This document shows positions 590-5,066 of a stretch of DNA of 64,000 nt, one piece after another. The notes beneath the pieces were generated by a model. The model was not told where the DNA came from. It ran no database searches and saw only the letters and a list, made by a program, of their open reading frames with translations. The position numbers and the translations under genes are program-made. Numbering within the stretch: the stretch's first letter is position 1; each line of letters begins with the position of its first letter. Source of the stretch: Roseiflexus sp. RS-1 (GTDB lineage Bacteria; Chloroflexota; Chloroflexia; Chloroflexales; Roseiflexaceae); NCBI RefSeq assembly GCF_000016665.1, contig NC_009523.1:2232001-2296000 (forward strand). The letters are read 5' to 3'.

Positions 590-604
590 ATTAAAAATTA
601 AGAG

Positions 605-682
605 GATGTAGTGGCGCTCCAGCTCGACGAGCGACGGGGTGCGGCGGTAAACGGAGTAAGCCGTGCGGTCGATAGACGCCAT
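605..682 (-). pseudogene. Possible N-terminal fragment of a Tn3-like transposase
   Basis: Reading the minus strand from the ATG at 682 gives about 26 residues beginning MASIDRTAYSVYRR. From memory this resembles the N-terminus of some Tn3-family transposases (a MASI-RTAYP-like start), but no other part of such a gene is present. The frame runs into the tail of the SDR gene on the other strand, where similarity must end. If real, it is a short relic in the gap between the SDR gene and the IS5-type element. The match is short and unconfirmed. Confidence 0.25.
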
Positions 683-856
683 GCGGGGCGGCCTTTCAGC
701 TGTTGGATGCGAGGATGGGGAATGTCTGTGACGAGAGTACAGCAGACATGAACAGGCTAAACACGCGCTCTTCGTGTCTGCTAAGAGGGCGATCAGAAAA
801 CCGGATTTGTGGTATCATGATGGCGACCATGCCGTTCTGATGAGGAGCAATCTCGT

Positions 857-1682
857 ATGCCACGACGTGCACGTCGATCCTATCCAACCAAGGATGCGAC
901 CGATCTGACCGATGCGCAATGGGCCGCCATCGCGCCACTCGTCATCACCCCGTCGCCCAACGGCGGGCGTCCGACCGACATTGATCGCCGCGCGATCGTC
1001 AACGCGCTGCGCTCCAAAAATCGCACGGGCTGTCAATGGCGCATGCGTCCAAAAGATGTTCCGCCAATGAGTTCGGTTCGCTCCTCTTTCGACAAATGGA
1101 ATCGTGATGGAACATTCATCAAAATCAATAATACCTTGCGCAAACTGGCGCGACAAGCGTTGAATCGCGACCCGGAGCCGTCCATCAGCGTCCTGGACTC
1201 CCAATCCGTCAAAACGACCGAAGCAGGCGGAGAACGCGGCGACGATGGGGGAAAAAAAGGTCAATGGGCGCAAACGGCAATGCTGGGTTGATACAAATGG
1301 GTTCTTGCTGCGCGTGCTCGTCCATCCGGCAGACATTTCTGATACCGAAGGCGCGGAGTGGCTTTTGGCCGCGCATCATCAATCGTTTCCTCGGATGCAA
1401 GAAATTCGGGTGGATGAAGGCTACAAACAAGGGTTAAATGAATGGATGCAACAGAACACGACGATACGCCTGAATGTCATCGAAAAACCGCCTGGACAAA
1501 AGGGATGTGCGGTCATCCCGAAGCGATGGGTGGTAGAACGCTCGATTGCGTGGGCGGGACGCAATCGGTTGTTGCGGCGAATAATTATTCGCCGCAACAA
1601 CCGCAACCCAGAATCAAGCGAAGCCTTTCTTTATCTCGGTTCTATTGCAATGCTCCTGAATAGGCTTTATCCGAGGTTTTAG
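857..1682 (+). CDS. IS5-family DDE transposase, two frames joined at an A7 run
   Basis: Frame 1 covers 857-1291 and frame 2 covers 1245-1682. Frame 1 has the N-terminal helical region and the first catalytic Asp (LDSQSVKT). Frame 2 has the second Asp (VHPADISDTEGA) and the catalytic Glu in WVVERS. The frames meet at a G5-A7-GG run (1247-1260). Removing one A, or a +1 ribosomal shift, gives a continuous GGKKVNGRKR segment as in intact IS5 transposases. This may be programmed frameshifting, transcript slippage or an inactivating insertion. The C-terminal region after the catalytic Glu is unusual: the stretch RNRLLRRIIIRRNNRNPE is encoded by a perfect 38-bp palindrome and replaces the expected RRLSKDYE-type sequence. 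Confidence 0.8.
1566..1603. repeat. 38-bp perfect palindrome inside the transposase frame
   Basis: Each arm is 19 bases (CGGTTGTTGCGGCGAATAA and its reverse complement) with no spacer. It lies in frame in the C-terminal part of the transposase and encodes an Arg/Ile/Asn-rich stretch not expected in IS5 proteins. The symmetry was checked base by base. Confidence 0.95.
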
Positions 1683-1743
1683 TTTTTGATCACGCTCTTA
1701 CTGTTCGAGCCCCTCGTAAAGTTATGGCACTGTGTGTAGACAT

Positions 1744-2667
1744 TCACTTTTCATCCTTCAGTGGCGTAGGTGTAGGCTGAGGAAGTTGGGGACTCAGTCG
1801 CGAAAGTCCTTCAACCGTCTCAATAGCTGCTAATAAGTTTGGGACTTGTACCACACGAACCTCTACTGCTCGATCCTTATACGTATCGAGAATGTCGCTT
1901 ATCGGATCAACAAGCATGATGGCTTGCTGATCACTCAGCAGTGAAGCATCAGTTGCAGGTAAAGTACCTCGTAGCCAGGAGACTTTGAAGGAGGTGTTTT
2001 GCGCATGAATTCCCTTCTTCTCCAAAACAGGTGCGGGAAGTAGTTGCCACAATTGCTCCTCGAACTGATCTACAGAGGCATCGAAATCAACGATGCGCCG
2101 ATCATCTGGCTCTGTCGGGTCGCTCACATACAATACGCTGTGGCGTTCTCCATCGACAAACAGATGAAGCGTCATTTCATCGATATCGAGATTGTACTTG
2201 CGCTTCAACTGCAGTACATCGCTTAAGGGGGTGTACTCCTGAAGGGAGATTGACACCTCGATAGTGCCAGAGGGATTGCTTGAAACGACGTTTGCAAGCG
2301 CCTGCTCTCTCATAGCGATATACTCGCGGATCTGCTCGTGGGATTGAAATGTTATATTGTTGTAGAGCTTCAAGTAAAACGGTTCAAGTCCAACTGCCTC
2401 AATCTGTAAGTCCCCAATACGAGTGACGTGTTCTACCCGTCGCTCATTCACAACGCCAGGTGAGCCCTGACGCGTCACAAGAGCATCTACAAGCCGCACA
2501 AAGTCTTGGGCGCGCTTGTCACCCTGGGCAGCCATCAACATGAGGCGATTATAAAATGGCTCGGCTTCAGTTGTAGCAGAGGTTGCAGTTGCAGTAATGC
2601 CTGCTACTATCGTGGCAACAATAAGCAGTACGATCCCCAAAGCGTAATGTGCTCGCTGAGCGGACAC
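1744..2667 (-). CDS. Membrane-anchored hypothetical protein
   Basis: I do not recognise this family. The GTG start at 2667 is chosen because an AGGAGG ribosome-binding site sits 7 bases upstream on the minus strand; the frame is open for 35 further codons but without such a site. The 307-aa product has one N-terminal hydrophobic segment (ALGIVLLIVATIVAGI, about residues 8-24), giving a signal anchor with the rest outside the cell. The exported part is acidic and mostly soluble, with no evident catalytic motif, and ends in a Pro/Thr tail (PQPTPTPLKDEK). It stands alone between the IS element and the IS982-like remnant, so context gives no function. Confidence 0.7.
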   Translation of the reverse strand: MSAQRAHYALGIVLLIVATIVAGITATATSATTEAEPFYNRLMLMAAQGDKRAQDFVRLVDALVTRQGSPGVVNERRVEHVTRIGDLQIEAVGLEPFYLKLYNNITFQSHEQIREYIAMREQALANVVSSNPSGTIEVSISLQEYTPLSDVLQLKRKYNLDIDEMTLHLFVDGERHSVLYVSDPTEPDDRRIVDFDASVDQFEEQLWQLLPAPVLEKKGIHAQNTSFKVSWLRGTLPATDASLLSDQQAIMLVDPISDILDTYKDRAVEVRVVQVPNLLAAIETVEGLSRLSPQLPQPTPTPLKDEK

Positions 2668-2864
2668 AACAGGCCTCCTTTCCTCCCTCAGGGAACAGAG
2701 GGCGTCATCCGTCGCCACCCTGCTCTCTGCGAGCGTCACTGACACCCGGAGTCTATAACGATGGCAGAGCACTGTCTATCAGGGAACAACCCTGAATTGA
2801 GGCGAGTCTTTGCAGCACGCAGCGCGCACAAACCGGTCGGCGCGGTGCGCGCTTTCTCTCTCCG

Positions 2865-3007
2865 TTGAAGCGAGACATGGACACCACTTGGATGATAACC
2901 GCCTTTGTCGTGATTGACGCGCTGATGGAACGGCCGGGTCATCGCAGTGATGTGCGAGCGAGGGTTTCCGACTCCGAGATTGTGACGATAGCGGTCATCG
3001 TCGCCAA
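2865..3007 (+). pseudogene. Truncated IS982-like transposase
   Basis: The first ~45 codons after the ATG at 2877 resemble the N-terminus of IS982-type transposases, including the RVSDSEIVTIAVIVA segment (family: helical leader then LSDSE-(V/I)-(V/I)TIA). Similarity stops near 3007, where the frame runs into a dispersed intergenic repeat also seen near 16960 and 34060 (cagttctcacaaag). No catalytic residue remains, so the copy is dead. Confidence 0.6.
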
Positions 3008-3085
3008 TTCGGATAGGCTCTATGGCAGTTCTCACAAAGATTGCTATAGCATCGAATCAACCTTTACGAGAAACGCTCTGCAAAA

Positions 3086-3119
3086 TAAAAAAACCTGCAC
3101 AGCAGATGCTGCACAGGTT
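3086..3119 (-). terminator. Rho-independent terminator of the minus-strand RNA unit
   Basis: On the minus strand a 12-bp stem (AACCTGTGCAGC with GCTGTGCAGGTT, two G-U pairs) with a 4-base loop is followed by seven T. It lies about 407 bases downstream of a strong minus-strand promoter. Confidence 0.85.
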
Positions 3120-3493
3120 AGAGAGCAAAGCAATACCCCAGGGTATCTGAAAAGGCTCTGGTTCTCAACTCCTGGATCTACCGCCCGGCTACCGCGACAG
3201 CGCTTTGCAGACGGCCAGCTCCTCTGTCGGGGTCGCAACGCACCTCGCCTCTCATTCCCCCTGCGATGGTGCGAGCTTTACCGCTGGAATCCTGTGCCAG
3301 CTCACACAGCATCCGGTGTTTCATCAAACATCCGGCGCTTGCCTGTCGATCTCCATGGCGCTGATACTATGCCATTTCCCTCGACTTACGGTCGCCCCCG
3401 TCATCCCGACACCTGTGGGAAGCGCCGCTTGCTGTACAGGATCATCGATCCGTTTGTCAACGTCCAGTTATCCTTTTCGTTCCCTGGGGTGTT
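3087..3493 (-). ncRNA. Candidate structured non-coding RNA, about 407 nt
   Basis: A good promoter (3500-3527) and an intrinsic terminator (3086-3119) bracket a minus-strand segment without a convincing coding frame. Visible helices: 5' ACCCCAGGG (3490-3482) with CCCTGGGGT near the 3' end (3143-3135); GGCGCTT with AAGCGCC (7 bp, long range); CCGG-A-TGTTT/AAACA-CCGG hairpin; CGCACC-A-TCGC/GCGA-GGTGCG hairpin (10 bp with one bulge) with a purine-rich loop; CGACAG/CTGTCG; CGAC/GTCG. I could not find the universal RNase P core (GAGGAAAGTCC), tmRNA ends or a tag frame, or the SRP GGAAGCAGCC motif. It could be a lineage-specific structured RNA or a diverged known class. It lies 30 bases from the stop of the carotenoid desaturase on the same strand. 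Confidence 0.55.
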
Positions 3494-3499
3494 GGTTGC

Positions 3500-3527
3500 A
3501 TGATAGCATTCATGCGCCATAAGTCAA
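3500..3527 (-). promoter_or_regulatory. Sigma-70-type promoter for the candidate RNA
   Basis: On the minus strand TTGACT (3527-3522) and TATCAT (3505-3500) are separated by 16 bases. Transcription would start near 3493 and end at the terminator at 3086-3119. Confidence 0.7.
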
Positions 3528-3557
3528 GAGGTTCTTAAATCGTTTCTTAACGATATG

Positions 3558-5066
3558 TCAGGCGGAATCCGCCATGACACGCTCGGCGACGGCGCGCCCG
3601 GAAAGTAGTACCAGTGGAATGCCGCCGCCGGGATGGGTCCCGCCGCCGACGAAGTAGACGCCGCGCACGTCACGGGCGCGCAGCGGCGGACGCATGAATG
3701 CTGTCCACGGATTGTTCGATGCCAGTCCATAGATCGATCCCCCCGGCGCGTTGTAGCGTTGATTGATCGTTTCTGGCGTCCAGATCTGCTCGATGACGAT
3801 ATGCTGGCTCAGGTTCTCCAGTCCCATGCGCTCGAGTTTGTGCAGGATCAGATTGCGATACCCCTGCGCTTCGCGTGCCCAGTTGACCCGCGGATTGAGC
3901 ACCGGGGCGTTGACCAGAACGAACAGGTTCATATGACCGGGAGGCGCCAGGCGCGGATCGGTTACTGATGCTGCGCAAACGTAGATTGTTGGATCGGGTG
4001 CGGGAACCTGCATATCGACGATGGCGGCAAATTCGGCGCGATAGTCGGAAGAGAAAAAGATATTGTGGTGCGCCAGGTCGGGGTAGATGCGATTGATCCC
4101 CAGCAATAGCACGAATCCGCTGTACGATAGTTCCAGCTGTGCAAGGCGTGCGGCGGTTTTTTCATGTCCGGGCAACAACGTTGCATATGCGTAGCGTGGG
4201 TCGGCATTGACAATCACCCGGGAGGCAGCAAGTCGCTCACCGCCAGCCAGGATGACGCCGGTTGCGGCATTGTTGCTGACCTCGATGTGTTCGACAGGTG
4301 TGCAGGCGCGGATTTCGACCCCCAGTTCACGCGCCAGTTGTTCGAGTGCGCGTGCGATCTGATACATTCCGCCAGAAACATGCCACGCACCCTGAGCAAA
4401 CTCGACATAAGGAATGAGGTTGAACGTTGCCGGTGCGCGAAATGGCGATGATCCATTATACGATGCATAGCGATTGAATACCTGGCGCAGATACCGGCTG
4501 CGGAAAAAACTGCTGACTGCCTGATCGACCGTGCGGAAGGGGTCGATCTGCAACGTTCCGGTGAAGAGTTCAGGCGTGAGCAGACTTCGGATCCCGTCGA
4601 AGGGTCGGAGCAAAAATGGTCCTTCCGCCGCCCGATAAATCCGTTCAGCGTAGGCAAGAAAGCGGAGAAACCCCGAAACATCCGCCGGTTCGATCCGTTC
4701 GATTTCCTCGATGAGGCGTGGCAGATTCTGGTGAGCGTCGAACCGTGCACCGTCGGGCCAGCGGTACCGGCAGATGGGTTCGAGTTGCGTAATGGTCAGC
4801 GCTTCCTCCATGCGTCGCCCTGCGGCAGTAAAGACCGACCGTAACACCCAGGGCATTGTCAGCAGCGAGGGACCGGTATCGAACAGAAATCCATCCGCCT
4901 CGACCAGGTTCAGTTTGCCGCCGACCCGTTCGTTTTTTTCGAGCAGAACCACGCGCCGACCGCGCGCTGCCAGGTGAATGGCGGCGGATAGTCCGCCAAG
5001 CCCGCCGCCAATGATGATGATCGGGAGGTCCATATCTATCGGTATATCCTTTTCTAGAATGGTCAT
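3558..5066 (-). CDS. crtI: CrtI-type phytoene desaturase / carotenoid oxidoreductase
   Basis: This FAD-dependent amine-oxidase-fold enzyme of carotenoid synthesis introduces double bases' worth of desaturation, that is, double bonds, into phytoene or a later C40/C30 intermediate at the membrane. The 502-aa length is typical. Visible are the N-terminal dinucleotide-binding motif (IIIIGGGLGGLSAAIHL, residues 16-32), the ERVGGKLN segment, and the family C-terminal signature VYFVGGGTHPGGGIPLVLLSG. Start choice is unsure: ATG 5066 has no Shine-Dalgarno, while ATG 5033, just before the FAD motif, has AAGGA further upstream. The CrtI family also includes CrtN, CrtP/CrtO-like and CrtD-like enzymes, so the exact substrate cannot be read from sequence alone. 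It is not clustered with other crt genes here. Confidence 0.85.
   Translation of the reverse strand: MTILEKDIPIDMDLPIIIIGGGLGGLSAAIHLAARGRRVVLLEKNERVGGKLNLVEADGFLFDTGPSLLTMPWVLRSVFTAAGRRMEEALTITQLEPICRYRWPDGARFDAHQNLPRLIEEIERIEPADVSGFLRFLAYAERIYRAAEGPFLLRPFDGIRSLLTPELFTGTLQIDPFRTVDQAVSSFFRSRYLRQVFNRYASYNGSSPFRAPATFNLIPYVEFAQGAWHVSGGMYQIARALEQLARELGVEIRACTPVEHIEVSNNAATGVILAGGERLAASRVIVNADPRYAYATLLPGHEKTAARLAQLELSYSGFVLLLGINRIYPDLAHHNIFFSSDYRAEFAAIVDMQVPAPDPTIYVCAASVTDPRLAPPGHMNLFVLVNAPVLNPRVNWAREAQGYRNLILHKLERMGLENLSQHIVIEQIWTPETINQRYNAPGGSIYGLASNNPWTAFMRPPLRARDVRGVYFVGGGTHPGGGIPLVLLSGRAVAERVMADSA

Follow-up and report, generated by a model that had tools for sequence, protein, structure and literature searches.

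A locus beside crtI in Roseiflexus very probably holds an autonomous gene for a structured noncoding RNA absent from Rfam

What is encoded in the DNA directly downstream of crtI in Roseiflexus sp. RS-1, where a promoter, several helices and a terminator follow each other closely on one strand? We addressed this in a window of 64,000 nucleotides, by which we mean the whole stretch of DNA that was analysed. It spans positions 2232001-2296000 of a single contig of 5,801,598 bases. Sequence comparison makes it very probable that the locus is an autonomous gene for a structured noncoding RNA, which would found a family absent from Rfam. The features are listed below.

3558..5066, minus strand: neighbouring gene outside the RNA gene, crtI-family carotenoid desaturase (TIGR02734, 449.9 bits)
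3539..3554, minus strand: conserved 16-bp palindrome ATCGTTAAGAAACGAT upstream of the promoter
3522..3527, minus strand: -35 box TTGACT; 34 of 34 homologues checked have TTGAxx or TTGCxx here
3500..3505, minus strand: extended -10 box TATCAT with TGC ahead of it, as in 33 of 34 homologues
3134..3491, minus strand: predicted body of the structured noncoding RNA, about 360 nt, from homologues and covariation
3482..3490, minus strand: 5' strand of terminal helix P1, ACCCCAGGG, pairing with 3135-3143
3135..3143, minus strand: 3' strand of P1, CCCTGGGGT
3297..3433, minus strand: conserved core (models R1-R3) with closing pairs and helices a, b and c; 132.1 bits with R3, E 1.2e-36
3345..3385, minus strand: helix b, whose purine-rich internal loop is conserved
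3308..3340, minus strand: helix c, AAGCGCCGG...CCGGATGCT
3085..3119, minus strand: intrinsic terminator, 12-bp stem (3119-3092) followed by 7 T
G000:C1:3251471-3251589 (L105:5472-5590, plus strand): diverged second copy of the RNA core, within the window's own genome

The first-pass annotation of this DNA had described a promoter TTGACT-16-TATCAT, a 12-bp terminator stem with T7, a 9-bp pairing of the two ends and several long helices. These elements are indeed present: the two promoter boxes (3527-3522 and 3505-3500) are separated by 16 nt, which would place the transcript start at about 3493, the ends pair as ACCCCAGGG (3490-3482) with CCCTGGGGT (3143-3135), and the stem with its seven T follows. 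For the 414 nt of the minus strand, the folding energy is -171.5 kcal/mol, compared to -145.0 +/- 6.4 for shuffled sequences (z -4.2; none of 100 as good). Taken alone, promoter and terminator would be weak evidence, as chance alone would give 0.6 promoter-like and 0.8 terminator-like sites in the 1.2 kb scanned. The evidence is no longer weak because promoter and spacing, together with the terminal and internal helices, recur in dozens of homologues. Three other Roseiflexus copies also possess a T-run terminator, differing in sequence and located equally far from P1 (40-41 nt beyond it), while in many Chloroflexaceae copies the 110 nt that follow the body contain no recognisable T-run; the terminator is thus clear in Roseiflexus. 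A repeated mobile element as its source was rejected, since it has no second copy in the window and occupies the position of the other Roseiflexus terminators. Hence, at the level of sequence, the RNA gene has a promoter and a terminator of its own.

Homologues were collected in several rounds. A DNA search returned eight relatives with the RNA besides the window's own genome. R1, a covariance model of the ~140-nt core, was run over 400 genomes of the phylum and gave 28 positives; these fall into two family groups, both within the order Chloroflexales. With R2, 48 of 82 genomes of the order were positive, newly including the second Roseiflexus copy and genus g14 (family group f2), and the later model R3, run with laxer filters, added G024 and G033 (both f2) as well as G438 (family group f3). 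Altogether, an RNA copy of either type occurs in 51 of the 82 Chloroflexales genomes, spread over four family groups, and R3 found nothing outside the order in the 400 sampled phylum genomes. The weakest positive genomes are G024 (50 bits) and G438 (49 bits); G024 is supported by the palindrome and by a matching terminal helix formed by AGCCCTGA and TCAGGGCT, as judged by eye. In a pattern scan of 84,980 species, convincing matches were restricted to Chloroflexales-type records (Roseiflexus, Chloroflexus islandicus, Oscillochloris, Kouleothrix and further Chloroflexi relatives). Five other pattern matches scored 12-19 bits (E 0.02-0.7) after pattern selection and were taken as chance, so that a spread beyond the order was rejected; likewise, a phage origin was dismissed, as the single IMG/VR pattern match fails the model.

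Besides the copy at crtI, the second, diverged copy is found in other Roseiflexus genomes and in G009, and G001 carries this second copy only. It is flanked by an SDR gene on one side and the gene of a large membrane protein on the other, has a different promoter (TTGTAA-17-TATACT) and is about 337 nt long in G001.

The compensatory changes go beyond chance, and covariation is strong in both the core and the full-length alignments. In the consensus on 37 full-length copies, 94.9% of the cells of 50 pairs are paired and 37 of the 50 pairs exhibit double changes; the core alone has 39 pairs (92.6% paired; 27 of 39 with double changes). The full-length alignment holds 322 double-change cells versus a mean of 93 in shuffles, and its covariation score is 0.52 versus 0.22 for shuffled and 0.07-0.13 for slid structures. 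Slid structures were only 31-41% paired, and none of 500 shuffles was as good by any measure; neither control is complete, as shuffling takes no account of relatedness, and sliding gives an advantage to a structure that was itself derived from this alignment. However, both controls together, and helix sequences that are wholly different between families, leave little doubt that P1 and helices a-c are real. The terminal helix is present in 38 of 38 full-length copies searched, and 8 of the 10 consensus P1 pairs show double changes. P1 reads GCCTCGAGAG/CTCTCGAGGC or GCCTCAAGGG/CCCTTGAGGC in Chloroflexaceae, GCTCCAAGATG/CATCTTGGAGC in AL-N1 and, by eye, AGCCCTG/CAGGGCT in f2. In helix b, the outer 5 pairs are standard in 100% of the sequences (4 of 5 with double changes), and the internal loop is GGGAAA opposite GGGAGA in most homologues, with an invariant AAA. 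Helix c is paired in 97.9% of cells, and 7 of its 13 pairs show double changes. Outside the core, the body aligns poorly between Roseiflexus and Chloroflexaceae. A covariation scan for further contacts gave additional, less certain nested helices, by which two domains would be connected beneath P1, and no convincing pseudoknot.

In each of the 34 crtI-linked copies checked, a palindrome of the type ATCGT-CGAT (also written ATCGTTAAG) lies upstream of the promoter and begins 59-63 nt ahead of the RNA, and by eye it was seen in at least 11 further copies, both crtI-linked and from f2. The spacing of -35 box, 16-17-nt spacer, -10 box and RNA start is constant in the 34 copies examined. A search for the strict form ATCGTTAANNNNCGAT in ten genomes gave 0-2 matches in each, against 0 for the reversed pattern, and in most of these genomes its only copy is the one at the RNA gene. 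G000 and G147 have one other match each, G163 has its single match away from the RNA gene, and the only form in G009 is a looser one; a regulator dedicated to this gene is therefore only a suggestion. The palindrome is probably a regulator site of the RNA gene. It belongs to the RNA gene and not to the end of crtI, since it stays with the RNA in G024, where crtI is separated. By eye, it is absent from all seven second copies.

As the folded shape and the control region are conserved across relatives, the RNA almost certainly has a function. We envisage that it acts in trans from a stand-alone gene with its own promoter, preceded by the rare palindrome, where a DNA-binding protein would control transcription. 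The body of 350-420 nt, closed by the end-to-end helix and followed by a terminator in Roseiflexus, may then work as a protein-bound particle, with the invariant purine loops and AAGC motifs as putative contact sites. A role as protein-bound scaffold or decoy has about an even chance, and catalysis appears unlikely. Equally doubtful is the most far-reaching version, in which the RNA would form a lineage-specific machine, either a ribozyme or the core of an RNP, and a transcriptional regulator dedicated to it would have the RNA gene as its chief target. A base-pairing sRNA is somewhat less improbable than these two, although clearly behind the scaffold or decoy; here, the fold would mainly confer stability and unpaired stretches would pair with mRNAs. 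This explanation differs from ours in mechanism only and is counted within the probability of the autonomous RNA gene. It fits the regulated-looking promoter, the terminator, the restriction to one lineage and the frequent loss, and within Chloroflexaceae some unpaired stretches, for example UGUAAAG, are conserved. However, conservation resides mostly in helices and internal loops, which is unusual for sRNAs, and no unpaired seed shared by all families was seen.

The RNA lies downstream of a crtI orthologue in Roseiflexus, Chloroflexus-type and f2 genomes. Most copies come just after crtI and share its strand, and an SDR gene often lies further along. This conserved place could suggest a cis element, i.e. 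a crtI 3' UTR or the leader of a downstream gene, which we consider very improbable. The region has its own conserved promoter and palindrome at nearly fixed spacing, in Roseiflexus its terminator is followed by an SDR gene on the opposite strand, two opposite-strand genes split crtI from the RNA in G024, and in Roseiflexus the second copy is found away from crtI. In the window, a stretch without counterpart in other Roseiflexus (594-3085) is located between the RNA and the SDR gene. Its part at 857-1682 holds pieces of IS4/5-type transposases (PF13340, PF01609), an orphan ORF that matches no family takes up 1744-2772, and near 2860-3060 there may be the remnant of a transposase. Short repeats, among them GGAACTGTACGCACGTCGGTAACC and CGGAAGACGGAC, directly follow the RNA in several Chloroflexaceae (L027, L028, L037, L040).

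Many near-complete relatives (most f3 genomes, g8, G233 and G010) do not have the RNA, which makes it dispensable when the order as a whole is considered. At the crtI loci of RNA-negative relatives, a model search with filters off gave no RNA, and no palindrome was seen wherever the downstream stretch was readable, which indicates loss or divergence beyond the model. Judged from the sequences, the RNA has descended vertically beside crtI and has been lost repeatedly. A link to photosynthesis was rejected, as the RNA and reaction-centre genes do not coincide: PF00124 is present without the RNA in g8, G007 and G010, and the RNA without PF00124 in G006, G433 and g14.

The first-pass annotation had further held that the region lacks coding potential, that core motifs of RNase P RNA, tmRNA and SRP RNA were not to be seen and that the RNA could not be assigned, all of which agrees with our searches. 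A small-protein gene on either strand is hardly credible: antisense ORFs of 212 and 105 aa do overlap the region in the window, but neither has a Pfam match, and the longest ORFs vary in place and size among homologues, whereas the base pairing is kept. When the whole window was compared with Rfam 15 by cmscan, the sole match at or above the gathering threshold was a tRNA at 44.4 kb. At E<=10, the region gave sub-threshold matches to OmrA-B (22.7 of 40 bits) and Esr41 (18.8 of 102 bits), both on the terminator hairpin, and to sR44 (10.6 of 45 bits) outside the RNA. A highly diverged housekeeping RNA, which size and an end-to-end helix like those of RNase P RNA and tmRNA might suggest, is just as implausible as a small protein, being contradicted by separate copies of all four candidates at other loci of the same genome and by distant family members that also match no Rfam family within the RNA. 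These copies, none of which has a match in the RNA region, are RNase P RNA (RF00010; 503697), tmRNA (RF00023; 4593759, 170 bits), 6S RNA (RF00013; 3863934, 57.1 bits) and SRP RNA (RF00169; 208798, 55.9 bits). The RNase P RNA (L010:1380-1860) matches part of the model with 62.6 bits against a cut-off of 100 bits, and would thus be missed at the gathering threshold; by eye, its locus shows the expected conserved motifs. A SAM riboswitch (92 bits) is located at L073:3879-3987 in the Chloroflexi bacterium AL-N1 locus, apart from the RNA.

OLE, GOLLD, ROOL and raiA are orphan large structured bacterial RNAs. The Chloroflexales RNA resembles them in being stand-alone, several hundred nucleotides or so in length, heavily covarying, limited to a lineage and without a known function at discovery; unlike them, it has no match in Rfam 15 and is not phage-associated. 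With RNase P RNA it shares a similar length and the end-to-end helix, but RNase P RNA has its own locus at 503.7 kb. The Chloroflexi-1 motif (RF01698, an Rfam family by accession), a candidate structured RNA from Chloroflexus aggregans (PMC2864571), differs in that it is unmatched in the window and in the Chloroflexaceae copies scanned. Among the papers searched, none describes the RNA. Accordingly, orphan structured bacterial RNAs are known as a kind, and the family is new as far as the searched databases and papers show. A well-studied group of phototrophs would thereby gain a new RNA family whose fold is defined, whose gene has clear boundaries and whose upstream element is rare, and these features make searches for its expression, its regulator and its partners direct experiments.
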